Shown here: in pieces, positions 8,090 to 63,682 of the stretch | How positions within the stretch are numbered: the first letter of the stretch is position 1 | Layout of the letters: each line of letters begins with the position of its first letter | From: Chryseobacterium sp. CY350 | Lineage (GTDB): Bacteria > Bacteroidota > Bacteroidia > Flavobacteriales > Weeksellaceae | DNA length: 64,000 bases | Assembly: GCF_027945075.1 (NCBI RefSeq) | Contig: NZ_CP116034.1 | Span: 2,604,001-2,668,000, forward strand | Reading direction: 5' to 3' | Made by a program: the position numbers and the translations under genes | The notes under the pieces: generated by a model | Databases searched by the model: none | The model's input: only the letters and a program-made list of their open reading frames with translations | What the model was told of the DNA's origin: nothing

Positions 8090-10249
8090 ATGAAAAAATT
8101 ATTGGTTTGCGCATCGCTTTTAGGTTCTATGATATCGTTTGCACAGGAAAAAGATTCTGCACTAACAAAAAATATTGAAGAAGTGATCATCAGTACAATA
8201 TCAAAGAAAGACAGTGATTATTCCAACAAAATGCCTTTAAGAGCCATTGAAGATCCACAGGTATTATCTTCAGTTAATAGAGTCGTTCTCGAAAATCAGG
8301 CAATTTTTACGGTAGATGATGCTTACCGAAATGTAACAGGTCTACAGAAAATGTGGTCGGCAACAAGCAGAGCCGGCGACGGAGGTGCTTTTGTTGTTTT
8401 AAGAGGTTTTGTCTCCAGTAGCTCCATGAGAAACGGTTTGGTATCTCCGGTTACAACAACGATTGATGCAGTAAATCTAGAGAAACTTGAAGTTTTGAAA
8501 GGACCTTCAGGAACTTTGTACGGAAGTAACGTTGCATCTTATGGAGGACTCATCAACAGAGTTACTAAAAAACCGTATGAAACTTTTGGAGGAAACGTTT
8601 CTCTCATGGGAGGAAGTTACAATACATTCAGAGCGCAGGCTGACCTGAATGCTCCACTTACAAAAGATAACAAACTTTTATTAAGATTAAATACTGCTTA
8701 TACCAACGAAGGAACATTCCAAAAGATGGATGCGAAAAATTCTTATTTTGCATTTACACCAACCATTACATATAATGCATCAGACAGATTACAGTTTAAT
8801 GTAGAATACGAAATGTTCAATACAAGAGCTCTTGGTGAACAATTATTCTTTTATCTTTCTCCTGATACATTAGGTGGTATTAATAATATGAAAGACCTTG
8901 AAACCAAAGGTTTAGACTACAGACAGTCTTATGTAGGTGATGACTTATACACAACAGCAAGAGTCAACAATATTTTTGGTCAGATCAATTATAAAATTAA
9001 TGATCATATAAAATCGTCCACCAATATTAATAATTCTCATAGTTATTCCGATGGTTTTGGGCCATACTTTTCTGTAGGTTTAAATGCCAACAATGCTTTA
9101 ACAGTTTCTAGATTTGATCAGGGAACAAGAGACAGTAAGAAAAACTGGTTCCAGATTCAGCAGAATTTCAACTTAGATTATACTTTTGGAAACGGAATGA
9201 GAAACAGAACGGTAGCTGGTTTTGATTTCTTGAAAACGAAAGACAGATCAAGATTTATCTATCTAGCAGTCACAGGAGAAGAATCGTTCAATAATCCTGT
9301 ACCGGCAAATGGTGGAAATTATTCAGACTTCAATGGTTCGACGCTAGGTAATCTTTATGCAGATCCTGCGAACATAGGAAATTATGATATTGATGCGGAT
9401 CTTAATACTTACAGTGGTTACATTTCCAACGTTTTCACGCCGGTTACAGGTTTAAATTTAGTGTTAGGAGTTCGCTACGAAAGTAATGATTTTCAAGGTG
9501 GAGAAATCTTCAAGGTACCTACTGCTAGTTACAACCAGTCGGCTTGGTCACCAAAAGCAGGATTAGTATATGAAATTTTGAAAGATAAATTCTCTGTTTT
9601 CGGAAATTATCAGAACAGCTTCAAAAGTAATGGATATTTCGTTTATAACACTGCCGGTGACATCGCTTTATCTGATCCTGAAAGAGCAAATCAATTCGAA
9701 GGTGGTTTTAAGACAAATATCATTAACGGAAAAATAAACGCAACGGTAAGCTATTACGATATTAAAGCTAAAAATTATCTTGTAACAACAGGATATACAA
9801 ACAACAATAGAGCAATACAAAATCAAACAGGTGAAATTCACAGTAAAGGAGTGGAACTCGAAGTAAACGCTTACTTGGTAAAAGGTTTCTCTCTTATCGG
9901 AGGTATTGCTTACAATGATACAACTGATTTGTCAACAGGTCTCAGACCCACAACGGCAGGTTCTTACTGGTTAGGCAACTTTAATGCAAGTTATCAGTTT
10001 TTAGACGGCGGGCTTAGAGGTTTAGGCTTTGGCGTTGGAGGAAACTATGCGAGTGACAATAATGTAACAGGAAACTTTATTCTTCCTAAATATTTTGTGA
10101 TGAATGCTAATGCATTTTATGATGCAAAAAAATTCAGAATAGGGGTAAAAGTGGATAATTTCACTAACGAACATTACTGGACAGGTTATTCTACAGCGAA
10201 TCCGCAGAAGCTGATTAACGCTTTGGGAACCGTAACTTACAAGTTCTAA
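8090..10249 (+). CDS. TonB-dependent siderophore receptor
   Basis: A 719-residue outer-membrane receptor. It has a signal peptide (MKKLLVCASLLGSMISFAQ, cleavage after about residue 19), a plug domain (about 50-170, with LEKLEVLKGPSGTLYGS typical of ferric-siderophore receptors) and a long 22-strand-type barrel ending in an aromatic residue (GTVTYKF). There is no carboxypeptidase-like extension, which argues against a SusC-type glycan importer. It should import ferric siderophore using TonB energy. The PepSY gene downstream on the same strand supports an iron role. The siderophore cannot be deduced; FhuE- or FoxA-like receptors are the nearest idea. Confidence 0.9.
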   Translation: MKKLLVCASLLGSMISFAQEKDSALTKNIEEVIISTISKKDSDYSNKMPLRAIEDPQVLSSVNRVVLENQAIFTVDDAYRNVTGLQKMWSATSRAGDGGAFVVLRGFVSSSSMRNGLVSPVTTTIDAVNLEKLEVLKGPSGTLYGSNVASYGGLINRVTKKPYETFGGNVSLMGGSYNTFRAQADLNAPLTKDNKLLLRLNTAYTNEGTFQKMDAKNSYFAFTPTITYNASDRLQFNVEYEMFNTRALGEQLFFYLSPDTLGGINNMKDLETKGLDYRQSYVGDDLYTTARVNNIFGQINYKINDHIKSSTNINNSHSYSDGFGPYFSVGLNANNALTVSRFDQGTRDSKKNWFQIQQNFNLDYTFGNGMRNRTVAGFDFLKTKDRSRFIYLAVTGEESFNNPVPANGGNYSDFNGSTLGNLYADPANIGNYDIDADLNTYSGYISNVFTPVTGLNLVLGVRYESNDFQGGEIFKVPTASYNQSAWSPKAGLVYEILKDKFSVFGNYQNSFKSNGYFVYNTAGDIALSDPERANQFEGGFKTNIINGKINATVSYYDIKAKNYLVTTGYTNNNRAIQNQTGEIHSKGVELEVNAYLVKGFSLIGGIAYNDTTDLSTGLRPTTAGSYWLGNFNASYQFLDGGLRGLGFGVGGNYASDNNVTGNFILPKYFVMNANAFYDAKKFRIGVKVDNFTNEHYWTGYSTANPQKLINALGTVTYKF

Positions 10250-10271
10250 TCACAAAAGAATCAAAATTATG

Positions 10272-10307
10272 CTGCCAAACTTCGCGAGTCGTTTGGCAGA
10301 TTTTTTT
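10272..10307 (+). terminator. Rho-independent terminator after the siderophore receptor
   Basis: CTGCCAAAC (10272-10280) pairs with GTTTGGCAG (10291-10299), and T7 follows. The PepSY gene therefore probably uses its own promoter. Confidence 0.85.
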
Positions 10308-10362
10308 ACTCCAAATTTTCGCATTCCTTAATTGTATTTAATCTAAATAAAAACGGAAAGCA

Positions 10363-10370
10363 TATATTTG
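10363..10370 (+). promoter_or_regulatory. -7 promoter element of the PepSY gene
   Basis: TATATTTG followed by CA, 18 bp before the ATG, is the same octamer as at the receptor gene. TTTAATCTAAATAAA lies upstream and is a possible iron-repressor site; that part is inference. Confidence 0.45.
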
Positions 10371-10387
10371 CACAACTTTAAGAATTC

Positions 10388-11596
10388 ATGAGGAAAAAAC
10401 ATCACCACAAAAAGAAACCGAGTTTTTTTAAAAAATGGACTGGCAAACTGCATTTATGGTTTGGTTTGGGAATCGGATTTTTGATTTTCATTATTTCCAT
10501 TACCGGAGCTTTATATGTATTTAAAGATGAGGTGGAGAATTTCACCAGAAAAGATGTAATTTATCATAACGAAAAAAATATTGATCAAAAACAGATTCTT
10601 CCTATCAGAATTCTGGAAAAAAAAGTGGTAGATCAGGTACATGAAGAATATCCGATTCATTGGGTCAATATTCCTATTGATAAAAAAATGTCTTACCAGT
10701 TTTATTGGTATGAGCACAATCCTAAAGCCTGGCATTATTTTGAAGAATTTCCTATTTATAAACTTGCTTACGTAAATCCCTACACCGGAAAAGTTCTGAG
10801 AACCTACGACGAGAAAAATGGTTTTTTCCAGATCGTAAAAATGATCCACTGGAGCTATTTATTGAAGCAGGAATGGGGAACTTATGTGGTCGGAATTCCC
10901 GTCATTATCTTCGTAATCATGTTGATTTCCGGAATTATATTATGGTGGCCAAAAAATAAAGCAGCCAGAAAACAGCGTTTCTCTTTCAAATGGCAAAACG
11001 TAAAAAACTGGAAGAGGAAAAATTATGATCTCCACAATATATTAGGATTTTATGCATCCATATTTGCTTTAGTTTTCTCATTAACAGGATTATTTTATGC
11101 ATTCTTTGTCGTTCAGGCGGCATTCTACTTTGTTTTTTCCGGCGGAAGCACTACGTATCCCGACTTTTCAGCAATTAAGACAAAAGCTCCCACAGAGTTG
11201 CGAACTGAAGATACTTTAGATAAAATCAGCAATACGGTAAAAGAAAAATATCCAACTTCTTACGGTTTTGCGATCGATCTGGGTCATCCTCACATCGACG
11301 ATCACGAACATCCGAATTTTGAGGTTTTTGTAAAACATCTCTCTTATTCTTACCACAAAAGCAGCAGTTTAATTTTTGATGAAAACTCAGGAGAACTGCT
11401 TCACACGCACGATATGAAAGATAAAAATTTTGGTGAAAAAGCCGTTGGAGCCAATTACGATATTCATGTAGGTTCCATTTTAGGCTTGCCAACGAAGATT
11501 ATTGCATTCATTGTTAGTTTAATCTGCGCTTCGCTACCCGTGACAGGATTTTTGGTTTGGTGGGGAAGAAGAAAGAAAACCAAAAAGGCCGTTTAA
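10388..11596 (+). CDS. PepSY-associated transmembrane protein, iron-uptake type
   Basis: A 402-residue membrane protein. The N-terminus is basic and His-rich (MRKKHHHKKK). It is followed by a hydrophobic helix (about 23-44), a long periplasmic PepSY-like part, a helix near 175-195 ending in ILWWPKN, further helices near 225-255 and a last one near 370-395 with FLVWWGRRKK. This layout is that of PepSY_TM proteins, often encoded beside ferric-siderophore receptors and thought to act as ferric reductases in siderophore iron release. The receptor directly upstream supports this. The reductase activity is inferred from the family. Confidence 0.85.
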   Translation: MRKKHHHKKKPSFFKKWTGKLHLWFGLGIGFLIFIISITGALYVFKDEVENFTRKDVIYHNEKNIDQKQILPIRILEKKVVDQVHEEYPIHWVNIPIDKKMSYQFYWYEHNPKAWHYFEEFPIYKLAYVNPYTGKVLRTYDEKNGFFQIVKMIHWSYLLKQEWGTYVVGIPVIIFVIMLISGIILWWPKNKAARKQRFSFKWQNVKNWKRKNYDLHNILGFYASIFALVFSLTGLFYAFFVVQAAFYFVFSGGSTTYPDFSAIKTKAPTELRTEDTLDKISNTVKEKYPTSYGFAIDLGHPHIDDHEHPNFEVFVKHLSYSYHKSSSLIFDENSGELLHTHDMKDKNFGEKAVGANYDIHVGSILGLPTKIIAFIVSLICASLPVTGFLVWWGRRKKTKKAV

Positions 11597-11685
11597 TATT
11601 TATTTTTTAAATTATTATTGGCCGAAATCATTATTAATACAATCTTTTTTATAAATTTATTGCCTCGAAATTATACAATAAGAAA

Positions 11686-12654
11686 ATGTCAGTAGTAGAT
11701 TTGTCAAAACAGGTTGCATTAGGTATCGATATCGGTGGAACCAATACTAAATTTGGTTTAGTAAATCACAGAGGCCAAATTTTAGCAAAAGGTTCAATTC
11801 CAACAGACCAATATGCGACTCCGGAAGAATTTATTGATGCCTTGCACAAAGAAATTCAGCCGCTGATCGATGAGCATGGTGTAGAAAAAATGATTGAAGG
11901 AATCGGTGTAGGTGCGCCCAATGCAAACTACTACAGAGGAACAATCGAGCAGGCTCCTAATCTTCCGTGGAAAGGCGTAATATATTTTGCAGATTTAATG
12001 ACCGAGAAATTCGGGCAGCCCTGCAAAATGACCAACGATGCCAACGCTGCTGCTCTTGGTGAAATGATGTACGGCGCTGCAAGAGGAATGAAAGATTTTA
12101 TCATGATTACTTTGGGAACAGGCGTAGGAAGCGGAATCGTTTCCGGTGGTCATTTGATCTACGGACACGACGGTTTTGCCGGAGAACTTGGTCATACGAT
12201 CGTAAAACCGGGAGGAAGAAAACATTGGAGCACCGGCTCTGAAGGAAGCCTAGAATCTTATGCATCAGCAACAGGAATTGCCATAACCGCAAAAAAAATG
12301 AGAGCAGAATTTCCGGATTCTATGCTTAACAGATACCCTGAAGATACCATCAATTCTAAAACCGTTCACGAATGCGCCTTGAAAGGAGACCCTGTAGCCA
12401 TTGAAGTTTTCAGGTATACTGGTCAGAAATTGGGCGAGGCTTTAGCGAATTTTGTGATGTTTTCATCTCCGGAAGCAATTTTATTGTTCGGCGGAGTGAT
12501 CAAAGCAGGAGATTTTATTTTAAATCCTGCGAAACTGCACATGGAACGAAATCTTTTACCGATTTTCAGAAATAAAGTGAAACTGGTTTTCAGCGAACTT
12601 GATGAAGCTGATGCTGCTATCTTGGGCGCAAGTGCTTTAGTTTGGGAAAAATAA
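11686..12654 (+). CDS. ROK family sugar kinase (glucokinase-like)
   Basis: A 322-residue ROK protein. GIDIGGTNTKFG (about residues 13-24) is the phosphate-binding loop and ITLGTGVGSGIV the second ATP motif; ELGHT provides the conserved Glu/His near the sugar site. There is no N-terminal helix-turn-helix, so it is an enzyme rather than a repressor. The full ROK cysteine zinc motif is absent: the segment after GELGHT is IVKPGGRKHWSTGSEGSLE, with no CxCGxxGC. Members without this motif exist in Bacteroidota. The likely reaction is ATP-dependent phosphorylation of glucose or a related hexose. Confidence 0.85.
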   Translation: MSVVDLSKQVALGIDIGGTNTKFGLVNHRGQILAKGSIPTDQYATPEEFIDALHKEIQPLIDEHGVEKMIEGIGVGAPNANYYRGTIEQAPNLPWKGVIYFADLMTEKFGQPCKMTNDANAAALGEMMYGAARGMKDFIMITLGTGVGSGIVSGGHLIYGHDGFAGELGHTIVKPGGRKHWSTGSEGSLESYASATGIAITAKKMRAEFPDSMLNRYPEDTINSKTVHECALKGDPVAIEVFRYTGQKLGEALANFVMFSSPEAILLFGGVIKAGDFILNPAKLHMERNLLPIFRNKVKLVFSELDEADAAILGASALVWEK

Positions 12655-12676
12655 ATTCAGACAGATAAAATATATT

Positions 12677-12705
12677 GAGCATTCTCTTTTGGGAATGCTT
12701 TTTTA
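12677..12705 (+). terminator. Rho-independent terminator of the ROK kinase gene
   Basis: AGCATTC and GAATGCT flank a short loop and are followed by T6, starting 23 bp after the stop codon. Confidence 0.75.
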
Positions 12706-12807
12706 TTTAAAAAATTCAATTGAGTTGCTTACATATTATTTGCTAAATCTATCATCGCTATTTGCGTTTAAACCTTTCCTAAGATTAGTTTTGGCTCAAT
12801 TTTTTCT

Positions 12808-12815
12808 TACTTTTG
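12808..12815 (+). promoter_or_regulatory. Candidate promoter of msrA
   Basis: TACTTTTG fits TAnnTTTG, with TTTTGG about 14 bp upstream. The leader to the ATG at 12881 would be about 60 nt. Confidence 0.4.
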
Positions 12816-12880
12816 AAGAGTTTTTTAGCAAGCTTCAATCAGTTTGCAGAGAAACTATTCGAACATAAAATCAATTTAAA

Positions 12881-13438
12881 ATGGATAATAATAATTTACA
12901 GCAAATTACTTTCGGAGGCGGATGTTTCTGGTGTCTAGAAAGCTGTTTCACTATGTTGAAAGGCGTAAAATCTGCAATTTCAGGATATTCCGGAGGTCAT
13001 AAAGACAATCCTACCTATGAAGAAATCTGCACCGGAACGACAGGGCACGCAGAAGTGGTTCAGATAACTTACGATCCTTCAATTATTTCTTACGATCAAC
13101 TGATGGATGTCTTTTTTTTCCTCCACGATCCTACGCAGCTCAACAGACAGGGAAATGACATTGGAACTCAATATCGTTCTGTAATTTTCTATAAAGATGA
13201 TGCAGAAAAGCAGAGAGCAGAAAATGCCATCAAAGAATCAGAAACTTCAGGAAAATGGTCAGGAAAATATGTAACAGAATTGGCACCCTTTGAAAAATTC
13301 TGGGTGGCAGAACAATATCACCAGGGATATTATCATGTAAACCCGAATCAGCCTTACTGCAGCGCAGTAGTTGGCCCTAAGATTCAAAAATTCAAAAAAC
13401 ATTTCGGAGAATTGGGAATGTTGACAGATTCAGAATAA
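12881..13438 (+). CDS. msrA: Peptide-methionine (S)-S-oxide reductase MsrA
   Basis: A 185-residue MsrA, which repairs methionine-S-sulfoxide in proteins. The signature GGGCFWCLE gives the catalytic Cys15, with Cys18 three residues later. GYSGG, GHAEVVQ and the C-terminal EQYHQGYY are also conserved. Another Cys in the C-terminal part (QPYCSAVV) could resolve the disulfide. It has no signal peptide and no fused MsrB domain, so it should act in the cytoplasm with thioredoxin. Confidence 0.96.
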   Translation: MDNNNLQQITFGGGCFWCLESCFTMLKGVKSAISGYSGGHKDNPTYEEICTGTTGHAEVVQITYDPSIISYDQLMDVFFFLHDPTQLNRQGNDIGTQYRSVIFYKDDAEKQRAENAIKESETSGKWSGKYVTELAPFEKFWVAEQYHQGYYHVNPNQPYCSAVVGPKIQKFKKHFGELGMLTDSE

Positions 13439-13441
13439 AGA

Positions 13442-13470
13442 AAAGCGAAGAGAAATCTTCGCTTTATTTG
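13442..13470. terminator. Bidirectional terminator between convergent genes
   Basis: AAAGCGAAG (13442-13450) and CTTCGCTTT (13457-13465) form a 9-bp stem with a 6-nt loop. It separates msrA from the convergent minus-strand gene ending at 13474, and the A/T flanks let it serve both strands. Confidence 0.75.
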
Positions 13471-13473
13471 TTT

Positions 13474-14304
13474 TTACTCGTCCTGAATTCCTGCGTATTT
13501 TTCAATAATATGAGCGGTCGAACTCCGCAATTCTCTTCCGTTATCGGGATCTTCACCATCCAAAGTGAAAAACTCTACTACTCCATTATATTTTGAATAC
13601 CATGTTTTTCCTGCTGCATTTTCAACTGTTAATGTATCTTTTCTTGTAATTTTTTTAAAATATTTCAGCCGATAAGGATCTACCCGTTTCATCTCTAGAT
13701 TGGGTCTGTCGTCTTCACAGTCAATAAGTCTGTATTTAATTTTATCCCAATACATACATTTTTTTTCTTTCGCAGGTTCTGTACCTCCAAATAAGCCTAA
13801 AGTTTTTTCAATTCCTATTTTCTTGTAATTCCCTGAAACAAAGCTTCCGGTAAGCAAAACTGCAACGAAAGCGAGTTCTACTATTCCGAAACCATTTTGT
13901 TTCATAAATTCCGGCATCTTAAAATTTTGTTCGTTGGTAATATTAACAATGATATTTGTAAGCTTTTCAGTTAAGGATTCTTCATCCTGATCCACACTTA
14001 TTTTTACCGTTGTTTTGTTTGCATCATCATCTGCTTTTACAAAAGTTCTGGTAAAATCAGAGAAATCATTGTAACCCAAGTATTGACTCAACTTATTCAA
14101 AGTATCAGAATCGATATTTATTTCTTTATTATCTCTAATAAACGCGTCGTAATATCTTATAAAAGTCTTATCTGAGATACTTGGCGAAAAATGGTCATCA
14201 AAATAAGACCATAGATAAGCTGCTATTCCACTCTTTGCATCTTTCCCCGATTCTCTTTTTCCTTGCTTAAATACCTCATCGATTAGTAGTTTTCTTTTGG
14301 ACAT
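13474..14304 (-). CDS. Unrecognised protein with one internal membrane segment
   Basis: A 276-residue protein I do not recognise. Residues 1-115 look like a soluble helical domain (SDKTFIRYYDAFIRDN, LNKLSQYLGYNDFSDFTRTF). One hydrophobic segment follows at about residues 143-160 (GIVELAFVAVLLTGSFVSG), then a roughly 115-residue C-terminal domain with a Cys pair (KKCMYWDKIKYRLIDCED). The layout suggests a cytoplasmic N-terminal domain and an external C-terminal domain. Its promoter carries the TTACGG-N4-CCGTAA palindrome also found at 17317, so it may be controlled by the regulator at 16597-17259. Confidence 0.8.
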   Translation of the reverse strand: MSKRKLLIDEVFKQGKRESGKDAKSGIAAYLWSYFDDHFSPSISDKTFIRYYDAFIRDNKEINIDSDTLNKLSQYLGYNDFSDFTRTFVKADDDANKTTVKISVDQDEESLTEKLTNIIVNITNEQNFKMPEFMKQNGFGIVELAFVAVLLTGSFVSGNYKKIGIEKTLGLFGGTEPAKEKKCMYWDKIKYRLIDCEDDRPNLEMKRVDPYRLKYFKKITRKDTLTVENAAGKTWYSKYNGVVEFFTLDGEDPDNGRELRSSTAHIIEKYAGIQDE

Positions 14305-14325
14305 AATTAGTTTTTAAGAGTATTA

Positions 14326-14370
14326 CAAAATAGGTGATTTCCAACCATTCTTCATTACGGTTTTCCGTAA
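14326..14370 (-). promoter_or_regulatory. Promoter with palindromic operator TTACGG-N4-CCGTAA (copy 1)
   Basis: The palindrome at 14355-14370 (16 bp, extendable to ATTACGG/CCGTAAT at 14354-14371) lies upstream of a minus-strand -7-like TATTTTG (bases 14332 to 14326). The distance from palindrome edge to the -7 G is 29 nt, identical to copy 2 at 17317. This placement suits an activator site for the gene starting at 14304. Confidence 0.5.
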
Positions 14371-14696
14371 TCCAATCCCACCCATTTATTGTCCATCGAT
14401 GTCTCTGTTTTGTCTAACACCTGCGTCACCATTTGTCGCAAATTTGCTAAAGAAATCAGTGACAAACAAACAATTACAAAAAACAAAGTTACAAAACTGA
14501 TTTCAAAATCACCAGATAAAACGGAAGAAAACTCCGGGTTGGGAAGCAGATGTTTCTCTTCCGTTTTTGAAGGTTTACTTCCCAAAAAATTTAGAAGCGC
14601 TTCAATTTTTTTTAAACGTGTAACACTGTCTGCGATCTGTTTCGCAGGGAAGAACACGAATGCTTTAACAATAAATTTTTTGACAAAATGATTCAA
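14355..14696 (-). CDS. Possible small membrane protein, start uncertain
   Basis: An open frame of up to 113 codons whose only early starts are TTG (14696) or a GTG about 13 codons in; there is no ATG before residue 88. It holds a convincing hydrophobic helix (about residues 69-88, SFVTLFFVIVCLSLISLA) followed by an amphipathic tail ending DYGKP. It lies 50 bp upstream of the 276-residue gene on the same strand. Against it: no ATG start, overlap with the plus-strand Gly-rich gene at 14688, and the operator palindrome at its 3' end. The plus frame across the same bases lacks any feature. Confidence 0.4.
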   Translation of the reverse strand: MNHFVKKFIVKAFVFFPAKQIADSVTRLKKIEALLNFLGSKPSKTEEKHLLPNPEFSSVLSGDFEISFVTLFFVIVCLSLISLANLRQMVTQVLDKTETSMDNKWVGLDYGKP

Positions 14697-14888
14697 ATAC
14701 TTTTAATGCTACTAGGTTTAGCATTCGGAAACAATAACGGAAATGCAAATTGCGATAATAACAACGGAGGAACGGTAACAACTCAAGATTCCGGAGGAGG
14801 AACAGGAACGGGGATTGATCCGGGCGATACTGGTGGGCCAGTCGGTGGTAACTCAGGGCAATTGCCTCCACCTACTCCTCGACCTTAA
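14688..14888 (+). CDS. Small glycine/asparagine-rich peptide with hydrophobic N-terminus
   Basis: A 66-residue frame: a hydrophobic start (MIQILLMLLGLAFG), then a low-complexity stretch rich in Gly, Asn and Asp, and a proline-rich end (PPPTPRP). An in-frame ATG at 14706 is an alternative start. It may be secreted or cell-surface, like other short Gly/Asp/Pro-rich exported peptides of Chryseobacterium. The best support that it is transcribed is a clean terminator 10 bp after its stop. No promoter is clear, and it overlaps the start of the opposite-strand frame. No function can be given. Confidence 0.5.
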   Translation: MIQILLMLLGLAFGNNNGNANCDNNNGGTVTTQDSGGGTGTGIDPGDTGGPVGGNSGQLPPPTPRP

Positions 14889-53912: not shown

Positions 53913-54920
53913 TTAAGGATATTCATTTCTTGCTCGTGTTACCAGACCAACCAAATCTGATCCTCCGCTGGCAAAATTAATACTCGGATTGTGCGCACTT
54001 TGAGTCGCAACTGCATAAGGAGAACCATTCCAGTATCCCCAAAACGGACCGCCACTTTGTCCGGGCCAAATATCTGCTTGGTGATTGATGCTTTCGTTAT
54101 CATCCGGGCTCCAGAAATCTCCATCAAGAGCAATTCCTGTTTGAAAGGTAGGTCTTTGAGTTCCCGTAAGATCTGCAGGATAACCAGCATGAGTAAACGA
54201 CGCCTGTCCGTCCCAAGAATCTGAATATGATTTTGAACCCAGCCAGCCTGTACTACTGCCGATTGGCCGGTCTAAAACTACTACGACATAATCAAACTGC
54301 ACTTCAGTTCCGTCAATAGTAGGACCTGCAACTTTATGCTTGTAATACGTTTGAATTCCCCACGCAGTTCCGTAAGGAGCGCTTCCGTTGTAATACATTG
54401 GGGTAAATTTCAACCAACCTGTTTGGTTATTGGGTTTCCAATCTATAATATGTGAGCAAGTCAAAAGATGTCGTGGCCCGATCATTACGCCACTTGCGAT
54501 TCCTAAAGGACTTTCAACTCTTCCTACACAACGCCACGGATAAGCCGTTGAATTGAATACTTTTCTCTGATCCGGTCCGAAAATAGTTCTTGCTCCATTT
54601 ACTGTAAGAAAATTTTCTCGTTCAATAAATTTCGGTTTTCTATCTTTTTTAGGTTCTAATTTTGGCTGATATTCAAAATCTGCATGAGTTGGGTAGAAAT
54701 GATCGGTTTCTGTAACCTTATCATCCACAGATTTTTCATTCATTGTTATGGCGACAGATTTCATTCCTTTCGGATAAGCTCTACCATCGATGATTTCCAT
54801 TTCAGGTTCTTTGTCGGATAATTTTAAATTTGCTGATTTTTCGGCCGATTTTGCTTTGATTGTTTTAAGTCTTAAAACTTCTTCAGCCGTCATTGGGTTG
54901 TTGTTTTCGATATTAGACAT
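53913..54920 (-). CDS. V8/Mpr-like serine protease with pro-region, no signal peptide
   Basis: A 335-residue trypsin-fold protease (S1B/V8 type). Catalytic residues: His157 (TCSHII), Asp210 (FDYVVVVLD), Ser289 (GQSGGP). Residues 112-135 (TIFGPDQRKVF, TAYPWRCVGRV) match the mature N-terminus of Bacillus glutamyl endopeptidase/Mpr (VIGxDDR...TAYPYRAIGR). So residues 1-111 are a pro-region, ending NGAR, and cleavage after Arg111 would release the enzyme. Unlike V8 or Mpr it has no signal peptide, so it should stay in the cytoplasm. The caspase gene lies 66 bp upstream on the same strand; metacaspases cut after Arg or Lys, so it is a natural activator (inference). Confidence 0.85.
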   Translation of the reverse strand: MSNIENNNPMTAEEVLRLKTIKAKSAEKSANLKLSDKEPEMEIIDGRAYPKGMKSVAITMNEKSVDDKVTETDHFYPTHADFEYQPKLEPKKDRKPKFIERENFLTVNGARTIFGPDQRKVFNSTAYPWRCVGRVESPLGIASGVMIGPRHLLTCSHIIDWKPNNQTGWLKFTPMYYNGSAPYGTAWGIQTYYKHKVAGPTIDGTEVQFDYVVVVLDRPIGSSTGWLGSKSYSDSWDGQASFTHAGYPADLTGTQRPTFQTGIALDGDFWSPDDNESINHQADIWPGQSGGPFWGYWNGSPYAVATQSAHNPSINFASGGSDLVGLVTRARNEYP

Positions 54921-54986
54921 GATTATATGGTGTTTTAATCAGTTTTTTCCTACTCTTTGGATGGCTTTTCGGATTCCGCCAATGGT

Positions 54987-55832
54987 TTATAAAAATATTT
55001 TTTGTGAGAATTCTGCGGTCACGCTTTCTGTCTGGTTGATTTGTGCTGCATTCATTGCTGCTAAGGCTATAGCAATCTGTTTATCAAGTGTTTTTCTGAC
55101 AATATTTCCATTCGTAGCACGAAGTATTTTACAGAAATGATAGGTGAAATAACCTCGGATCTGTCCGCTCATGTTTCCTTCCATAGAAACTTGATTATCT
55201 TTGGAAGCCGCCCACAATGTATGGTTAAGACCTTCTACCGCAACCAGAGCTTTGGTAGTGAATGTCTGTTTTTTAGAATTTTTAGATAACAGAATTTCGC
55301 TTGCATAGGTTGTATAGAATTCATCTTCTAGCATCGGCGGAATGAAACGGGCAGCTTCGTAGGAAAAATCTATATCCAGAGCTAAATTCATCTTTCTTGT
55401 TCCGCTTCCGGAATGACAACAATCAAAAATAACTTCCAGATTTACACCAGATTTCAATTTGCTTAAAATTGCTTTAAAATCATCATCACGAATAACTCCT
55501 GCACTTGAATAATCGTGCGGACAAATAGCCTCATCTAAACCGTCAATTTCAAGATCTGCGCCTATGTTGGCAACTCTTGTTCCGTGACCGGAATAATAAA
55601 ACACAAGAGAATCTCCTTTTATACTGTTGGAAACCAAAGACTTTAAATATTTTAAAATATTGGCTCTCGTAGCATTTTGATTGGTCAAAATTTTAATCTG
55701 TGCAGGAGCAAACCCGCAAATTACCAGCGTATTGGCCATATCCCGCGCATCGTTGATACATCCGTTCAGATCCGGGCCGCCCGAACCAACTGGCGCATAA
55801 TCATTGATCCCTACAATTAATGCTTTTTTCAT
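54987..55832 (-). CDS. Caspase-like cysteine protease (C14, metacaspase type)
   Basis: A 281-residue C14 peptidase. The p20 core is KALIVGINDYAPVG..DLNGCINDA, with catalytic His83 (YYSGHGTR) and Cys139 (VIFDCCHSGSG); SGHGT and DCCHSG are the metacaspase signatures. The acidic EAICPHDY (about residues 101-108) is typical for basic P1 specificity. Residues 180-281 form a p10-like part. No signal peptide or sensor domain is fused, so it is probably controlled by a small ligand, oligomer or partner. Its neighbour is a protease zymogen with an Arg at the pro-site. Possible roles: regulated cell death, phage defence or stress. Confidence 0.9.
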   Translation of the reverse strand: MKKALIVGINDYAPVGSGGPDLNGCINDARDMANTLVICGFAPAQIKILTNQNATRANILKYLKSLVSNSIKGDSLVFYYSGHGTRVANIGADLEIDGLDEAICPHDYSSAGVIRDDDFKAILSKLKSGVNLEVIFDCCHSGSGTRKMNLALDIDFSYEAARFIPPMLEDEFYTTYASEILLSKNSKKQTFTTKALVAVEGLNHTLWAASKDNQVSMEGNMSGQIRGYFTYHFCKILRATNGNIVRKTLDKQIAIALAAMNAAQINQTESVTAEFSQKIFL

Positions 55833-56003
55833 TTTATTAGTTTTTAAATTTCCCTTACTCTGTTTTGGCTTTTCAGGTTCTGCCTTTAACTTTAATTACA
55901 TGACAAAATTCTGATTTTCAAACACATGAGAATAGAGGAGAAAACCTAATTTATTACAGGAAAATCACCTTTAATGAAAATTGAGAAAAATTTAGACACA
56001 AAA

Positions 56004-56142: not shown

Positions 56143-56787
56143 TTAAGATAAATTATGTTTTAAAGCGAAAAGTACAAGACCCACTCTGTTTTTTATTTCT
56201 AATTTCACAAAAACAGAATCTCTGTAACCGTCGATGGTTTTTGGGCTCAGACACATTTTATCAGCAATTTCTTTGTAGGTCAATTCGCTACACGCCAATT
56301 TGATGAACTCCTTTTCTCTTTCCTTTAAATCTGATAAAAGTGAGGCATTTTTTGCGTCTTCAGTCTGCACTTTCAGGAGTTTCTGCGCTACAAAATCTGT
56401 GTAGAAACTTCCTTTCTCGAAAACCGTATCAATCGCCTGAAAAAGTATCGAAGGCTGCATATCTTTCAGCAAATATCCTTTGGCTCCGGCTTTCAACATT
56501 CTGATTAGCACTTTCTCGTCATCTTCCATCGTGAGGGCGATTACTTTGATGTCGGGATGATGCTCTGTAAGCCATTCTGTGGTTTCAATTCCGTTTTTGT
56601 ATGGCATATTAATATCCATCAAAACAACGGCAGGTAGTTGAGAGACTTTTTCTAAAGCCGTAATAAAATCTTCACCATTTGGCTGATTCATCACCACTTC
56701 GTATTTTGGGTTTTCCGCAATCATATTTTCTAATGCTTTCGACATTAAAGTATGATCGTCTACAATAGCAATCGGAATTGTTTTCAT
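56143..56787 (-). CDS. NarL/LuxR-family response regulator
   Basis: A 214-residue regulator: acidic pair DD (residues 10-11), phospho-acceptor Asp58 (VVLMDINMPYKNG), Lys in GYLLKDMQ. The C-terminal helix-turn-helix has LKEREKEFIKLACSELTYKEIADKM and SPKTIDGYRDSVFVKLEIKN, the classic LuxR set. Its start overlaps the kinase stop by 4 bp (ATGA type). It lies beside the caspase operon, so it may control it, but no operator is visible. Confidence 0.93.
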   Translation of the reverse strand: MKTIPIAIVDDHTLMSKALENMIAENPKYEVVMNQPNGEDFITALEKVSQLPAVVLMDINMPYKNGIETTEWLTEHHPDIKVIALTMEDDEKVLIRMLKAGAKGYLLKDMQPSILFQAIDTVFEKGSFYTDFVAQKLLKVQTEDAKNASLLSDLKEREKEFIKLACSELTYKEIADKMCLSPKTIDGYRDSVFVKLEIKNRVGLVLFALKHNLS

Positions 56788-57554
56788 GATAAATTTTTAT
56801 GGTATATGATGGATGTTTTTGTTCCTTCTTCCAGTATTGAACGAATTGAAAATTCTGCGTGAATCAGCTTTGCTCTCAGTTCCATATTTTTCAGTCCGGA
56901 ACCGTCATTCATTTCTTTTGTATTGAATCCTTTTCCATTATCCGCGATGGTAATTTCCAATATTTCATGATCGTCCTTCAATTGAATGGATACATTTTTG
57001 GCTCGCGAATGTTTTAAAATATTATTAATGCTTTCCTGAATAATTCTGAAAAGAATCAAACCATGTTTTGGGGTAATATCAACGTCATGCTTTTCCGTAA
57101 TGAACTCAATTTTTAGGAGTTTTAATTTTTTTATTCGCTGAATTTCTCTTTCGATAGATTCTACCAATCCAAAATGAATGATCTGCTCGGTAATCAAAGT
57201 TTTAGATAAATTTCTGACATCCTGAATGCATTCTCCCAACAACTCGTTTAACTCATTTAATTCTTCTTTTTCACCATTGTTAAGCTTAGTAAGTAGCTGA
57301 TTTTGTCTCAAACGAACAACGGAAAGTTTTTGTCCCAAATCGTCGTGAAGTTCCTGCCCGATATAATTCAGCGTTTGTTCTTTCATCTCGACTTGAGAAG
57401 TTGCCAATTCTTTTTCAAAATGTAAGTCTTTTTCTTTTTGCTCGATTAGTAGCGTTGTTTTTTTTCTAATGAAAATTACATAAACGAAAATCATCGTTAA
57501 GACAATGATCAACAGTGTGACCGTAAAAATTATTACCAGTTTGTTTTCTTCCAT
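56784..57554 (-). CDS. NarX/DesK-type sensor histidine kinase
   Basis: A 256-residue kinase: one membrane helix at the N-terminus (about 6-28), a coiled coil, H box with His70 (GQELHDDLGQKLSVVRLRQ), and HATPase motifs ESINNILKHSRAKNVSIQL and ADNGKGFNTKEMNDGSGLKNMELRA. It has no sensor domain of its own, so the multi-pass protein or the lipoprotein upstream may supply the signal. It pairs with the NarL-type regulator. Confidence 0.92.
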   Translation of the reverse strand: MEENKLVIIFTVTLLIIVLTMIFVYVIFIRKKTTLLIEQKEKDLHFEKELATSQVEMKEQTLNYIGQELHDDLGQKLSVVRLRQNQLLTKLNNGEKEELNELNELLGECIQDVRNLSKTLITEQIIHFGLVESIEREIQRIKKLKLLKIEFITEKHDVDITPKHGLILFRIIQESINNILKHSRAKNVSIQLKDDHEILEITIADNGKGFNTKEMNDGSGLKNMELRAKLIHAEFSIRSILEEGTKTSIIYHKNLS

Positions 57555-57563
57555 GTTTAACTG

Positions 57564-58214
57564 TCAGGTTTGTTTTTCCTTATCTGGTTTATTCCATAAT
57601 AAGCCGAGAACAATGACTCCGTTGTTGATCAGGTTTAATGAAAATAAAAAAAAGAAATAAATATCGTAAGAAATCGTCGCCCTGAAATATAGGATGGGAA
57701 TAATCCCGATATAAAAAAGCAATGAACCTGCCGAAATCCAAAATGGCAAATAATTTTTAATCTCAAATATTCTATCTGAATTGAAGGTTTGATAGAGAAA
57801 TAAAATAATCGAAAATGTCAGCAGAAGTATATTAACATAAAAACTGTTGAATGAAAACTTTTGCAAAAAATCACTTTCTACACAGAACATTATCAACACG
57901 TTAACAATAAAAAGCGCTAAAATAATTAACTGAATCTTTTTTAGTAATGAAATGTAGAGTAATTTGTAATAGTAGACTAAGTAGAGAAAAAACATCACAA
58001 ATATTCCTAGCACATAAAATTGATCTGTCGGTATTTTGGTTATTTCAAAGTAGAAATAGCAAAAAAAGTCAATCGTTGATATCATGATGAATCCTGCGAA
58101 AAAAATCATATTAACTTTTTCGATTTTTTTGTATTGAAAACACATCAGGAGCAACACCGCCAACAAAATAGCCATCGATATTTGTTTGCTCAATTCCACA
58201 TCCCAAACCATCAT
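57564..58214 (-). CDS. Multi-pass membrane protein, possible signal partner of the kinase
   Basis: A membrane protein of 216 residues from the ATG at 58214 (MMVWDVELSKQISMAIL). The open frame reaches 58262, but only by a TTG inside the lipoprotein gene, so the ATG 7 bp after that gene's stop is preferred. Six or seven hydrophobic segments cover it. No conserved residues I recognise. It sits between the lipoprotein and kinase genes, 9 bp before the kinase start, like a membrane sensor module for a kinase that lacks one. Confidence 0.7.
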   Translation of the reverse strand: MMVWDVELSKQISMAILLAVLLLMCFQYKKIEKVNMIFFAGFIMISTIDFFCYFYFEITKIPTDQFYVLGIFVMFFLYLVYYYKLLYISLLKKIQLIILALFIVNVLIMFCVESDFLQKFSFNSFYVNILLLTFSIILFLYQTFNSDRIFEIKNYLPFWISAGSLLFYIGIIPILYFRATISYDIYFFFLFSLNLINNGVIVLGLLWNKPDKEKQT

Positions 58215-58221
58215 TCCTATT

Positions 58222-58788
58222 TTAATTAATTCTCTCGACAATGGCTTTAGGCGGAGGTGCAAGATTCGTCATATTCATTGGTTGAATTGACTCAATTTTT
58301 TCGTTATCATCAGTTGATTCTGTTCCCCGACTTTTCATATTTGCATTCGAAGATCTTTCTTTTTTTGCGGTCGGCATGAGGAAGATCGTTTGATATCCCG
58401 CATATTCCGGTTTTGCCATTTTATTTACCGGATGGTCAACAGGATATTTTCCCATGTAAATTTTTATTCCAACGTTTTTAAGATTTTGCTTTATGGCACT
58501 TTCTTTTACATATTTGATGTATCCTTCCATCTCTTCAATTGTAAAAGAATACCATCTTGAATCTGGCTGTCCGTTTCTGGATGCTGCAAGGATTCTATTA
58601 TTAGTTTTTGTGTATTCATCAAAAAGAACCTGCGCTTCTTTGTGCGTAATCAGTTTTTTTCTATAGCTGTTATCAACAGGAGTTTCCGGCGTCGGCGGCG
58701 TACAACGTACAAATGTGATTGCAATTAAACTTAAAATAAGTACGCAATAAAACGAACTTACATTCTTAAATAAAAAAGGAGTTTTCAT
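58222..58788 (-). CDS. Lipoprotein of unknown function
   Basis: A 188-residue lipoprotein: signal of about 28 residues ending ITFVRC, with Cys29 as lipid site. The mature part has a Pro-rich start, then a globular segment (LITHKEAQVLFDEYTKTN; WYSFTIEEMEGYIKYVKESA; VGIKIYMGKYP) and a Pro-rich end (NLAPPPKAIVE). It heads the operon with a very good promoter. It may be an external sensor for the kinase, by position only. Confidence 0.75.
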   Translation of the reverse strand: MKTPFLFKNVSSFYCVLILSLIAITFVRCTPPTPETPVDNSYRKKLITHKEAQVLFDEYTKTNNRILAASRNGQPDSRWYSFTIEEMEGYIKYVKESAIKQNLKNVGIKIYMGKYPVDHPVNKMAKPEYAGYQTIFLMPTAKKERSSNANMKSRGTESTDDNEKIESIQPMNMTNLAPPPKAIVERIN

Positions 58789-59389: not shown

Positions 59390-59656
59390 ATGAAAAACAG
59401 TAAATTTTCAGAAGTTCAGATTATTAAGATTTTAGCTGAACAAAATCAAGGTAAAACAGTGAATGAGATCTGCCGAGAGCACGGCATCAGCCAGCCGACA
59501 TTTTACAAATGGAAGAGTAAATATGGAGGTTTGGATGTGCAGCAACTCTCCAAAATGAAGGAACTTGAAAAGGAACTTTCGCAGTACAAAAAAATCGTAG
59601 CGGAACTTACGCTGGAAAATGTGGTGATGAAAGATGTGATCGCAAAAAAGCTTTAA
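59390..59656 (+). CDS. IS3-family transposase OrfA
   Basis: An 88-residue helix-turn-helix plus leucine-zipper protein: SEVQIIKILAEQNQGKTVNEI, then HGISQPTFYKWKSKYGG (recognition helix) and a heptad coil (LSKMKELEKELSQYKKIVAEL). It binds the IS ends. Near its stop is A-AAA-AAG (59644-59650), the classic -1 slip site of IS3 elements. Confidence 0.92.
   Translation: MKNSKFSEVQIIKILAEQNQGKTVNEICREHGISQPTFYKWKSKYGGLDVQQLSKMKELEKELSQYKKIVAELTLENVVMKDVIAKKL
59644..59650 (+). promoter_or_regulatory. Programmed -1 frameshift heptamer of the IS
   Basis: A AAA AAG in the orfA frame, two codons before its TAA. Slipping back by one base reads GCT TTA ACA CCT and continues in the orfB frame without a stop to 60591. 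Confidence 0.75.
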
Positions 59657-60591
59657 CACCTTCCGAGAAGCGGGAACTGGTTGTTTATTCCGGATCAGAA
59701 TACGGAATAAGCACTCGGAATGCGTGTAGACTTTTTATCATAAACAGTTCGGTATTTTATTACAAGAAGAAGAAGAAGAAGAAGAAGAAAAACAATGAAG
59801 ACGACAAGATTCGGGAGGAACTATTCTTGCTTGCAAACCAGCACCAGAGCTGGGGATTTTGGACAATGCACCACCGCTTGAGGAATTTGGGTTTTGGATG
59901 GAATCACAAGCGGGTTTACAGGATCTACAAATCGATGAAACTGAATCTGAGAAGCAAGCGGAAAAAACGACTTCCGGCAAGGATAAAAGAGCCTTTGCTT
60001 CGTCCTATTTATCCCAATGTGACGTGGAGTATGGATTTTATGCACGACACTTTGGAGAATGGTAAAAGCGTGAGAAGCCTTAATATCATTGATGATTTTA
60101 ACAGAGAAATTTTGAATATTACCATCGATACCAGTTTGCCGTCAGCAAGAGTAGTTTCACAACTGCAACAACTGATCGACTGGCGTGGGAAACCGGAAAA
60201 AATAAGAGTTGACAACGGTCCGGAGTTTATTGCTGAAAAACTAAAAGATTGGTGCAGTAAAAATAATATTGTCCTTCATTATATTCAGCCTGGAAAACCA
60301 ACGCAAAACTCTTTGGTGGAGAGATTCAACAGGACTTTTCGGACAGAATTTTTAGATGTTTATCTTTTTGAAAATATCAAGCAGATGAGAAACTATTCAG
60401 AAATCTGGATGTGGATGTACAATAATGAACGTCCTCACAAATCATTGCAATACCTCACGCCAAGGGATTTTTTGTTGAAATATGGAAAACTCAATCAGGG
60501 TAATGTAGAAGAGTTTCCCACATTCCAACAAAATTTCAACAACGACAATAATAAATTATTAACAAAAAACTCTACTTTTGAGTGTACCTAA
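59650..60591 (+). CDS. IS3-family transposase OrfB (DDE integrase domain), expressed by frameshift
   Basis: The frame is open from the slip site (59650) to 60591, about 313 codons, with a first in-frame ATG only at 59863 or so. DDE residues: Asp in TWSMDFMHDTL, Asp in IRVDNGPEF and Glu in NSLVERFNRTFR, spaced as in rve domains. A HTH_21-like part (WGFWTMHHRLRNLGFGWNHK) precedes it. An odd run of nine Lys codons (AAG x8, AAA; 59764-59790) lies near the start; it may be a replication-slippage tract. Catalytic residues intact, so the element may still be active. Confidence 0.85.
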   Translation, partial: ALTPSEKRELVVYSGSEYGISTRNACRLFIINSSVFYYKKKKKKKKKNNEDDKIREELFLLANQHQSWGFWTMHHRLRNLGFGWNHKRVYRIYKSMKLNLRSKRKKRLPARIKEPLLRPIYPNVTWSMDFMHDTLENGKSVRSLNIIDDFNREILNITIDTSLPSARVVSQLQQLIDWRGKPEKIRVDNGPEFIAEKLKDWCSKNNIVLHYIQPGKPTQNSLVERFNRTFRTEFLDVYLFENIKQMRNYSEIWMWMYNNERPHKSLQYLTPRDFLLKYGKLNQGNVEEFPTFQQNFNNDNNKLLTKNSTFECT

Positions 60592-60602: not shown

Positions 60603-62165
60603 TTACAGTTTTATCATTCCCCAAATACCTGTCCCAATTCTTGAAAAAGGCGATATAGTATTCTCATCTCCTAACGATTTAAAATCGTCATCATCAAACG
60701 AGATCTGATTTATTGAGCCTACAGTAATAGCAAAACTACTTTGAGCAGGATTCGCAATTCTACAATATGCTTCATTCAAATAATCAGGATAATTTTTCCC
60801 ATTTTCTATAAAATGATTAATCCCAAAACCTCTTTCATCACTAATTGAAATATTTCCAGCAGATATTAAAAATAATATATTTTTTTCATTAATAAGTGTA
60901 TCAATCGTAGCAGCCCAAGATGACATATGCTTAATTCTTGATGGTAAACAAGAATTAACAGAAAGGTTGAATACTCTACAATCTTCATTGTCAGCAATTA
61001 TTTCCTGCATTAGTTGAGCAGGAAGTTTATCTGTAAGCCTATTGTCTTTATTTAAAATTCTTAGATTTCTAACATAGCAAGGGAGTTGATAAGGATTGGA
61101 AACATTACTAATACCGTTTGGGTACAAAATTGCGCCTGCTACACGAGTTCCGTGTCCCCCACCTTTTACATAATCTGCTGTAGAAGTGTCACCAATAATA
61201 TAAGACTTTGAATTTTCAGAAATTATTGCTGAAGAAATATATTTATTTCCTTCCATAATACCGCTATCGATCACTCCTATTTCAGGAGCGTCTTCCTCTG
61301 GCTTAATAATTTCAATTTCGAATATTTCGGATTCTTCGGATTCTGAGTTTACACCCACAATTTCATCAACCTCTGAAACTTCAAAAACAAAAGGGTAATT
61401 TAACACTAAGTCCTTTAAGCCCTTTCCATTAATTTCAACTTCACAACAAAAACTATCTTCTAAATCGATAAGATTGCTGGTAACAGTACCGTAGTAATTT
61501 ATAAACTCTTCAAATTCATCTTGTCTCTCAAGGAATCTATTATCCCGTTCGATTAGTTCTAGCCTATGTTTTTCTAATCTACCTGCATAATGTTGCTTAT
61601 TTGGATCCGGGGCTTTTGCCATCGGCTTATCGAATGCAACTCCAACCTCTAATTTATAATTAGCATTTTCATCAACACTTTGCCATATAGATTTCAAATA
61701 ATCAGAAAGTATATGGGCTGGCTTCCATTGATTTCCATCTATAATTTCCCAAAATTCTGCAATTTGACCACCTCCGTGCTCACCATTAAAAAATTTATTT
61801 ATTTTCTCATCTAAAGATGCAAAACCATCTAAAGATGCTCCGATAATATATCCATCATCTTCTTCAGAAATTATTTCAATTCCAAACTGTTTTAAATCAA
61901 AATCATAAAGTATCTTATCGGGATTTATTTTTAGGAAAATTGGTATAATATCTGCATCGATAGGGGCTAAACCGTTGTTTTCTCTGTTGCCAAATTCAGT
62001 ATACCATCTGTCTTTTAATTGAGAAGTTTTACTGCTCAAATATCTTGAATGTCCAGATTTATTCTGTTTATTTTGCTCTGAATGAGGATTGGGTGTTCCT
62101 CCTCCGTGCAAACGAGGCTTCCCGGAAACCTTTTGTAGGAATTGTAGATGGGGAAATTTTTCCAT
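60603..62165 (-). CDS. Subtilisin-like (S8) protease, IetS-type, truncated by the IS
   Basis: A 520-codon frame. Asp300 (EIGVIDSGI) and His338 (GGGHGTRVAGA) and the oxyanion Asn438 (LISAGN) of a subtilisin are present, but the protein ends at SPFSRIGTGIWGMIKL. The catalytic Ser motif (GTSxxxP) normally comes after the IKP region and is absent. The last two codons are CTG TAA: the C is genomic and TGTAA is the IS right end, so the IS creates the stop. A 290-residue N-terminal domain precedes the protease fold. The ATPase gene starts just upstream (4 bp gap). The pair matches IetAS; as it stands the protease should be dead. Confidence 0.85.
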   Translation of the reverse strand: MEKFPHLQFLQKVSGKPRLHGGGTPNPHSEQNKQNKSGHSRYLSSKTSQLKDRWYTEFGNRENNGLAPIDADIIPIFLKINPDKILYDFDLKQFGIEIISEEDDGYIIGASLDGFASLDEKINKFFNGEHGGGQIAEFWEIIDGNQWKPAHILSDYLKSIWQSVDENANYKLEVGVAFDKPMAKAPDPNKQHYAGRLEKHRLELIERDNRFLERQDEFEEFINYYGTVTSNLIDLEDSFCCEVEINGKGLKDLVLNYPFVFEVSEVDEIVGVNSESEESEIFEIEIIKPEEDAPEIGVIDSGIMEGNKYISSAIISENSKSYIIGDTSTADYVKGGGHGTRVAGAILYPNGISNVSNPYQLPCYVRNLRILNKDNRLTDKLPAQLMQEIIADNEDCRVFNLSVNSCLPSRIKHMSSWAATIDTLINEKNILFLISAGNISISDERGFGINHFIENGKNYPDYLNEAYCRIANPAQSSFAITVGSINQISFDDDDFKSLGDENTISPFSRIGTGIWGMIKL

Positions 62166-62169
62166 TAAA

Positions 62170-63180
62170 TTATTTGTTAAAAGCTAAGTTTTCTTCCAGT
62201 GCTTTGTCCAAATCATTTACAGAAATTTCTTTGCTAGAATTTATAATAGATTTTTTTGCTGCATCATTTGCTATTTTAACAACAAGAGCATATGATAATC
62301 CTTGCATCTTAGATGCACATTTACTGAGATCAATCTCTTTATTAAGTCTTAATGCTGAAAATGTTATTTTAAGTAGATCTATGATTTCATTTTCGTTTGG
62401 TCTAGGCAATTCAATGATTTCATCAAATCTTCTAAACAAAGCTTTATCTAAACTAGCTTCTAAATTTGTTGTAGCAATTAAAATCCCTTGACCCTTGTAC
62501 TCTTCTAAAAGTCCTAAAACTATATTAACAATACGATGAATTTCACCAATATCATTAGATTTGGAATCTCTTTGTTGTCCTATAATATCAAACTCATCTA
62601 ATAATAAAACGCAAGGGTAGTTTTCAATACTTTCAAACAGTTTATTTAGATTTGATGCTGATTCCCCAAGGTATGAAGATATTATTGTATCGAAACGAAC
62701 TTTATAGAAAGGTAATCCCAAATCCCAAGCAATCCTTTCAGCTGTCATACTTTTTCCACATCCTGAACTACCGTACAAAAGTATTTTTTGACGGGGTCTA
62801 AGACCGTGGTGAGCTAATCTTTCTCTTGCTATATATTCCTTTTCAATTCTCAACACTTTTTCTTCCACCGATGGAGCAAGAACCATATCGTGTCTTAAAA
62901 AATCATTTTCTATATGAGTCGCTAAAGGTAATTTATACCTTCTATCGGCAGGAATCGAAAAAATATCATCTTTACTTTTTGTGAGTTTTAGTACTGGCGA
63001 TCTCTGAGGTTCAATAACTTTTGCAAGATTTCCTTCAAGAATCATATCAAGCCTCTCTGCCAATTTCGTATGCCCCTTTTTTCTCTCATCCTCAATAATG
63101 GAATAAGCTATCCTTACCAAAGGCTCTTCTTTATTGCCTTCGATAGATTTGAACAATCTTGTAAGTAGTGTTTGGTTCAT
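62170..63180 (-). CDS. AAA+ ATPase, IetA-type partner of the S8 protease
   Basis: A 336-residue AAA+ protein. Walker A is GSSGCGKS (137-144), Walker B VLLLDEFD (191-198); ATTNLE (sensor 1) and LFRRFDEIIELPRP (arginine fingers and second region of homology) follow. Residues 1-100 are helical with little similarity. It resembles the FtsH/spastin-like ATPases fused operonically to subtilisins, as in the IetAS defence pair of Gao and colleagues. It appears intact. Confidence 0.85.
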   Translation of the reverse strand: MNQTLLTRLFKSIEGNKEEPLVRIAYSIIEDERKKGHTKLAERLDMILEGNLAKVIEPQRSPVLKLTKSKDDIFSIPADRRYKLPLATHIENDFLRHDMVLAPSVEEKVLRIEKEYIARERLAHHGLRPRQKILLYGSSGCGKSMTAERIAWDLGLPFYKVRFDTIISSYLGESASNLNKLFESIENYPCVLLLDEFDIIGQQRDSKSNDIGEIHRIVNIVLGLLEEYKGQGILIATTNLEASLDKALFRRFDEIIELPRPNENEIIDLLKITFSALRLNKEIDLSKCASKMQGLSYALVVKIANDAAKKSIINSSKEISVNDLDKALEENLAFNK

Positions 63181-63428: not shown

Positions 63429-63510
63429 TACCCCAGACGGGACTTGAACCCGTACATCCGAAGATACAGGATTTTAAGTCCTGCGTGTCTACCAATTCCA
63501 CCACCAGGGC
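63429..63510 (-). tRNA. tRNA-Leu (anticodon UAA)
   Basis: 82 nt. The minus strand starts GCCCTGGTGGTGG. The anticodon stem-loop CAGGA-CTTAAAA-TCCTG gives anticodon TAA. The long variable arm typical of class II tRNAs is present, the T loop reads GGGTTCAAGTCCC, and the discriminator is A. CCA is not encoded. Confidence 0.95.
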
Positions 63511-63519
63511 ATGGAGTGG

Positions 63520-63592
63520 AGCGAAAAACGGGACTCGAACCCGCGACCCCAACCTTGGCAAGGTTGTGCTCTACCAGCTGAGCTATTTTCGC
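63520..63592 (-). tRNA. tRNA-Gly (anticodon GCC)
   Basis: 73 nt. Acceptor GCGAAAA pairs with TTTTCGC, discriminator U. D arm TAGCTCAGCTGGTAGAGCA; anticodon loop TTGCCAA gives GCC; T arm GGGTTCGAGTCCC. Confidence 0.95.
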
Positions 63593-63600
63593 ATAATTTG

Positions 63601-63682
63601 TGCGGATGAAGGGACTCGAACCCCCACGCCTCACGGCACCAGATCCTAAGTCTGGCGTGGCTACCAATTACACCACATCCGC
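63601..63682 (-). tRNA. tRNA-Leu (anticodon UAG)
   Basis: 82 nt. Acceptor GCGGATG/CATCCGC, discriminator A; anticodon stem-loop CCAGA-CTTAGGA-TCTGG gives TAG. Class II variable arm; T arm GGGGTTCGAGTCCC. Confidence 0.95.

Follow-up and report, generated by a model that had tools for sequence, protein, structure and literature searches.

A caspase gene and a V8-type protease gene behind a two-component block

The window, a 64,000-nucleotide stretch of a 4.09-Mb Chryseobacterium genome (G000), carries two neighbouring protease genes on the minus strand: a caspase gene comes first and, after a gap of 66 bp, a serine protease gene follows. On their 5' side lie, in this order, a lipoprotein-like gene and genes for a seven-segment membrane protein, a HisKA_3 kinase and a LuxR-type regulator, and each of the two protease genes is preceded by a DUF805b RNA element. 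Neither this four-gene block nor the RNA elements had been recognised in the initial annotation. A GNAT gene was also read among the flanking genes.

53913..54920 (-), V8/glutamyl-endopeptidase-like serine protease, 335 aa; catalytic residues His157, Asp210 and Ser289
54588..54920 (-), pro-region of the protease, codons 1-111, ending at Arg111, the predicted activation site
54588-54590 (-), Arg111 codon; 54585-54587 (-), Thr112 codon
54947..54982 (-), DUF805b cis-regulatory RNA element (RF02914) in the gap 5' of the protease gene, 43.3 bits
54987..55832 (-), metacaspase-like caspase, 281 aa; His83 and Cys139, with S1-pocket residues Cys25, Asp28, Ser81 and Asp137
55833..55990 (-), leader region of the caspase gene (bounds approximate), strongly conserved across Chryseobacterium
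55852..55886 (-), DUF805b element (RF02914) immediately 5' of the caspase gene, 35.9 bits
56143..56787 (-), LuxR/GerE-type response regulator, linked in 42 Chryseobacterium loci
56784..57554 (-), HisKA_3 histidine kinase
57564..58262 (-), membrane protein, seven hydrophobic segments, no Pfam match
58222..58788 (-), small lipoprotein-like protein, lipobox judged by eye, no Pfam match

We confirmed that both protease genes are present with intact active sites, as initially annotated. The serine protease matches Trypsin_2 in Pfam above the cut-off and no model in PADLOC. Structure comparison returned a trypsin fold with the catalytic triad and V8-type structures as the closest. In the structure model, residue 112 aligns with the first residue of both mature glutamyl endopeptidase and mature V8, in agreement with the V8-type mature N-terminus proposed at Thr112, and the junction (residues 108-113) is modelled with a pLDDT below 50 between better modelled parts. 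Enzymes of the V8 family require a free mature N-terminus for full activity. Hydropathy revealed no hydrophobic N-terminal segment; a signal peptide, which the initial annotation had also stated to be absent, is not visible, and the protease is apparently non-secreted.

The caspase matches Peptidase_C14 (PF00656, 102.4 bits, above the Pfam cut-off) and the general caspase model of PADLOC, and NCBIfam returned only a caspase match, below threshold. His83 is kept in 121 of 121 sequences and Cys139 in 120, with a gap in the other; Cys25, Asp28, Ser81 and Asp137 are each kept in all 121. The solved structures nearest to it by sequence are metacaspases, and in a motif alignment to metacaspase chains the last four residues correspond to Cys92, Asp95, Ser156 and Asp211 of TbMCA2, which PMC4357240 names as S1-pocket residues. 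A table in that paper gives metacaspases as Arg/Lys-specific and as activated by calcium and/or proteolysis. With a p20 domain bearing the His-Cys dyad and with this S1 pocket, the protein resembles the metacaspases/orthocaspases (C14B), and judging from the pocket it is expected to cut after Arg or Lys. A second caspase domain of the host genome lies outside the window (C1 170439-171125), inside an open frame of 1033 aa.

The order of activation could in principle be the reverse, with the serine protease processing and activating the caspase, much as processing at a basic residue occurs in some type II metacaspases (PMC4357240). However, type I metacaspases need no processing according to the same paper, and the zymogen architecture resides, in our model, in the serine protease, making this order highly improbable.

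Linkage of the pair and the residue before the predicted cut

The initial annotation had regarded the two genes as a pair, and their co-occurrence in relatives bears this out. The caspase gene lies directly upstream on the same strand in 42 of 42 fetched Chryseobacterium loci; in the genus read as Flavobacterium, where six of 249 genomes carry the protease, it is directly upstream in all six, with one caspase split into three frames. It is adjacent in none of the 10 non-Chryseobacterium loci of the same 52-locus set. Twelve exact contig-length matches between the protease and caspase homologue lists (the best 120 of 539 and the best 120 of 667), against 0.24-0.28 per other offset, suggest a dozen further pairs. 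The trees of the two proteins correlate (r 0.82, 30 pairs; r 0.52 within Chryseobacterium; r 0.85 outside it, 17 pairs, 0/5000 permutations), an agreement that, compared without a control gene, could be mere co-inheritance. The protease itself is uncommon, being found in 8 of 196 genomes of the order, 9 of 148 of the family and 7 of 395 Bacteroidota genomes, three of these seven as distant matches. Counting the starting genomes, it occurred in 3 of 194 genomes of the order to which the Dyadobacter genome belongs, and in 1 of 200 and 2 of 98 genomes of the families of a Burkholderiales genome and the Nitrospira genome, respectively.

Residue 111 was compared across 66 loci, made up of our own locus and two fetched sets of 52 and 13, with L055-L063, L066 and L084-L095 left out as duplicates. 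The caspase gene is adjacent in 49 of them; one (L041) is frameshifted and was counted apart, and the other 48 all have a basic residue at 111 (28 Arg and 20 Lys). Within the caspase-linked set, P2, P3 and P5 are variable and Phe at P8 is as invariant as the basic residue. The 17 loci lacking an adjacent caspase gene comprise 10 with Lys and seven with Glu, Asp, Ser, Thr or Tyr at 111, six of the seven being distant relatives (163-317 bits) in which the position of residue 111 is less certain. The close relatives among the unlinked loci (>500 bits, n = 11) have Lys in 10 cases and Glu in one (L096, 532 bits). Conservation at position 111, on which the initial annotation had made its proposal depend, holds as a basic residue in the intact caspase-linked loci, but it extends to close relatives that lack the linkage. 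Ten relatives with no caspase gene beside the protease also have Lys111; the residue alone is thus not enough to single out this caspase, and the site may serve a different enzyme. Among 119 listed protease homologues, Lys or Arg precedes the motif in 98 and Thr, Glu or Gln in 17 (the motif was not found in 4), so the basic residue is common to the wider family and not to caspase-linked members alone; all 12 contig-matched homologues have Lys or Arg. Nine of the 10 genomes with an unlinked Lys111 protease encode a caspase domain elsewhere, and in G672 no caspase domain was found in the genome, though its lone protease keeps Lys111.

The Lys111 proteins without an adjacent caspase, from Burkholderiales, Nitrospira, Dyadobacter and Sphingobacteriaceae, would suit an arrangement in which the pair is merely co-expressed: the protease would activate itself or be activated by some other enzyme that cuts after Lys or Arg, and both proteases would work side by side, on the same targets or on different ones. 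So would the other proteases found beside some relatives. In Dyadobacter (L049, 4766-7008), the protease adjoins a papain-like C1 peptidase and a chagasin-type I42 inhibitor; in a Nitrospira metagenome-assembled genome (L054, 5962-8364), it is followed by a subtilase on which we saw no obvious signal peptide by eye. Set against parallel action are the position of the caspase gene, directly upstream at every Flavobacterium and Chryseobacterium locus found, and the unlinked caspase of Burkholderiales genome G679, which matches the present caspase at 259 bits. We consider parallel action possible, with the odds leaning against it.

Further same-strand genes follow the pair in five of the six Flavobacterium loci. 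They include a 516-aa-type gene (L098, in pieces; L100, L101 and L108) or an unrelated 674-aa gene (L099), and a muramidase (L099, L100, L101 and L108; Pfam PF11860 and PF01471 in L108). The L108 operon (8956-14715) combines the N-acetylmuramidase with the orphan 516-aa family, for which 60 homologues were listed. Such varied neighbours suggest that the protease is able to work with different partners.

RNA elements, the regulatory block and nearby defence genes

Both DUF805b matches at the pair exceed the gathering cut-off of the covariance model (35.6 bits). In the 42 Chryseobacterium loci (542 kb), a strict pattern of the element matched 76 times and lay 21-29 nt before the start of the caspase gene in 34 loci and of the protease gene in 40. 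At the ten misses, the element or a near-match was seen on inspection, in L008 with a compensated stem; covariation counts are raised by overlapping matches and were used qualitatively only. The strict pattern had no match in the 52 fetched loci away from the stretch around the protease and caspase starts. The element also lies 5' of the protease gene in Flavobacterium (L099, L100 and L108) and Sphingobacteriaceae (L040), and 5' of the 516-aa-type gene in L098, L100, L101 and L108. It was not found before the protease gene in L097, L098 and L101, before the caspase gene in L097, L099, L100, L101 and L108, or before the lone proteases of L042-L049, L054 and L096.

Copy numbers were determined in 20 genomes from 150 scored candidates per genome. 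The host genome has five copies, two of them at this pair; G672 has exactly one, at its lone protease; G1457 has none among its 150 scored candidates; and G1413, which lacks the caspase, has 14. The presence of the element in genomes without the caspase indicates that it marks a wider programme. We read the surroundings of 20 other copies, out of 122 matches listed. Some precede a TIGR04149 RiPP precursor (L142), a Chryseobacterium bacteriocin-like leader peptide (L150), a class I lanthipeptide precursor (L147), a DUF6520 peptide (L141) or a PixA protein (L157), and some adjoin exporter genes, read as C39-type; the proteins downstream of the remainder had no clear theme. The three further copies of the host genome are outside the window (C1 2598829-2598864, 1495992-1496027 and 327512-327547), one behind a VKOR/thioredoxin protein and two between MauE-like and small peptide genes.

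Peptide genes and exporters near some copies, together with the sole copy found in G672, would be compatible with a programme of secreted peptides or antagonism, in which the role of the protease would be to trim peptide precursors or proteins co-produced under the same element. Yet the copies in caspase-free genomes imply that peptide production does not need the pair, and other copies precede proteins unrelated by theme; we regard this function as quite unlikely.

The six-gene block, from the lipoprotein-like gene to the protease gene, is collinear in 42 Chryseobacterium loci (in pieces in L041), and the genes downstream of the pair in the window are shared by only 7 of the 42. Among 118 Chryseobacterium genomes, the lipoprotein occurs in 48 and the caspase in 44, all 44 within the 48; the four genomes with the lipoprotein alone are G1413, G1457, G1460 and G1475. 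In Flavobacterium, the lipoprotein, kinase and regulator genes are divergent beside the pair in L101, as are the kinase and regulator genes in L097, and none of the three was detected in the other four loci. Within Chryseobacterium, the linkage of block and pair might reflect vertical inheritance.

The initial annotation had suggested phage attack or stress as the setting in which the pair might act; for phage attack the genomic context gave no support. A PADLOC search of the 59 window ORFs (E 1e-10) matched only the caspase and one IetAS-like pair about 5 kb away:

60606-62165 (-), IetS-like subtilase match, covering positions 73-483 of a 795-position profile
62173-63180 (-), IetA-like gene, PADLOC E 6.5e-73

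The IetS-like match ends beside transposase-like ORFs (59390-60591, read as IS3-type), and its C-terminal part appears to be missing. Three tandem tRNA genes (63429-63682, minus strand) lie beside the IetAS-like genes.

The proximity of these genes, and the known use of bacterial caspases with activated partners in defence (PMC12799240), would accord with an abortive-infection module against phage, similar in style to canu or to the type III-B protease cascade. However, a pattern search of viral contigs for close relatives of the protease gave no match; the IetAS-like genes were not found in the relatives' loci searched, including 20 stretches beyond the lipoprotein gene in other Chryseobacterium genomes; and the genes adjoining the pair form a two-component block, not a known defence sensor. 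Phage defence is one option among several, not favoured by the genomic context, and we think an abortive-infection module very unlikely.

A candidate proteolytic cascade and its relation to known systems

We propose a two-component-controlled intracellular cascade from caspase to V8-type zymogen, a switch of two proteolytic steps, to which we assign a probability of about one half. The metacaspase-type, Arg/Lys-cutting caspase would cut the pro-protease after residue 111 and free an N-terminus at Thr112, and the protease would then cut target proteins. The adjoining block of lipoprotein, membrane protein, kinase and regulator would control expression of the pair, with the DUF805b element of each gene providing fine adjustment. 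Because metacaspases are commonly activated by calcium, one may further speculate that the caspase is triggered by calcium that leaks in when the envelope is damaged. The two-step intracellular cascade that the initial annotation had put forward is thus retained in part: co-occurrence, the basic residue 111 and the lack of a visible export signal favour it, but Lys111 is not confined to caspase-linked loci and the defence reading found no backing. In a more tentative extension, which we consider unlikely, Bacteroidota would possess an intracellular cascade dedicated to execution: the block would sense the envelope and induce the metacaspase and the V8-type zymogen, the caspase would fire the zymogen, and DUF805b would tie both genes to a post-transcriptional programme shared with bacteriocin-like and RiPP genes, joining regulated self-proteolysis to antagonism.

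To our knowledge, few substrates are known for free-standing bacterial caspases, and for one such enzyme the locus points to a candidate substrate and to a candidate site of cleavage in it. If the proposed cascade is true, caspase-activated proenzymes would extend from nucleases to a V8-type protease. The locus also hints at a function for an orphan RNA family, with DUF805b as a possible marker of genes for peptide antagonism and proteolysis.

Combinations of peptidases have been described before. Kaur et al. 2020 (PMC7159879) present multi-peptidase conflict systems that combine trypsin-like, subtilisin and papain-like peptidases, and propose proteolytic cascades; of the partners that the paper describes, we found no NucA nuclease, EAD or MoxR among the flanking genes scanned. 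A 2012 survey (PMC3501461) found 23 of 217 metacaspase operons to include proteolysis domains; its main text uses neither the word trypsin nor the term serine protease.

The secreted zymogens of the V8/glutamyl endopeptidase/Esp family share with the present protease the fold and the triad, and their mature N-terminus is equivalent to residue 112, up to which a putative propeptide would be removed here. They differ in being secreted, whereas no signal peptide is visible here by hydropathy, and the protease at this locus has a 111-residue pro-region with well-modelled parts, a basic P1 residue and a putative intracellular activator. In canu and the Hachiman/AVAST protease-nuclease pairs (PMC12799240), the gene for a caspase-family protease adjoins that of a proenzyme which the caspase cleaves and thereby activates, as is proposed here. 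The partner at our locus is a V8-like protease (Trypsin_2) instead of an MBL-type pro-nuclease, the caspase consists of a bare domain of 281 residues, a two-component block lies alongside and the context does not favour a role in defence. The type III-B CRISPR SAVED-CHAT/PCaspase cascade, described in Science in 2024, reportedly also proceeds by serial protease activation that includes a caspase-type protease. By contrast, the 59 window ORFs contained no CRISPR or SAVED match in PADLOC (E 1e-10), and the caspase would here act upstream and the serine protease downstream. The present pair would share its logic with canu and the type III-B cascade while belonging, on this comparison, to neither.
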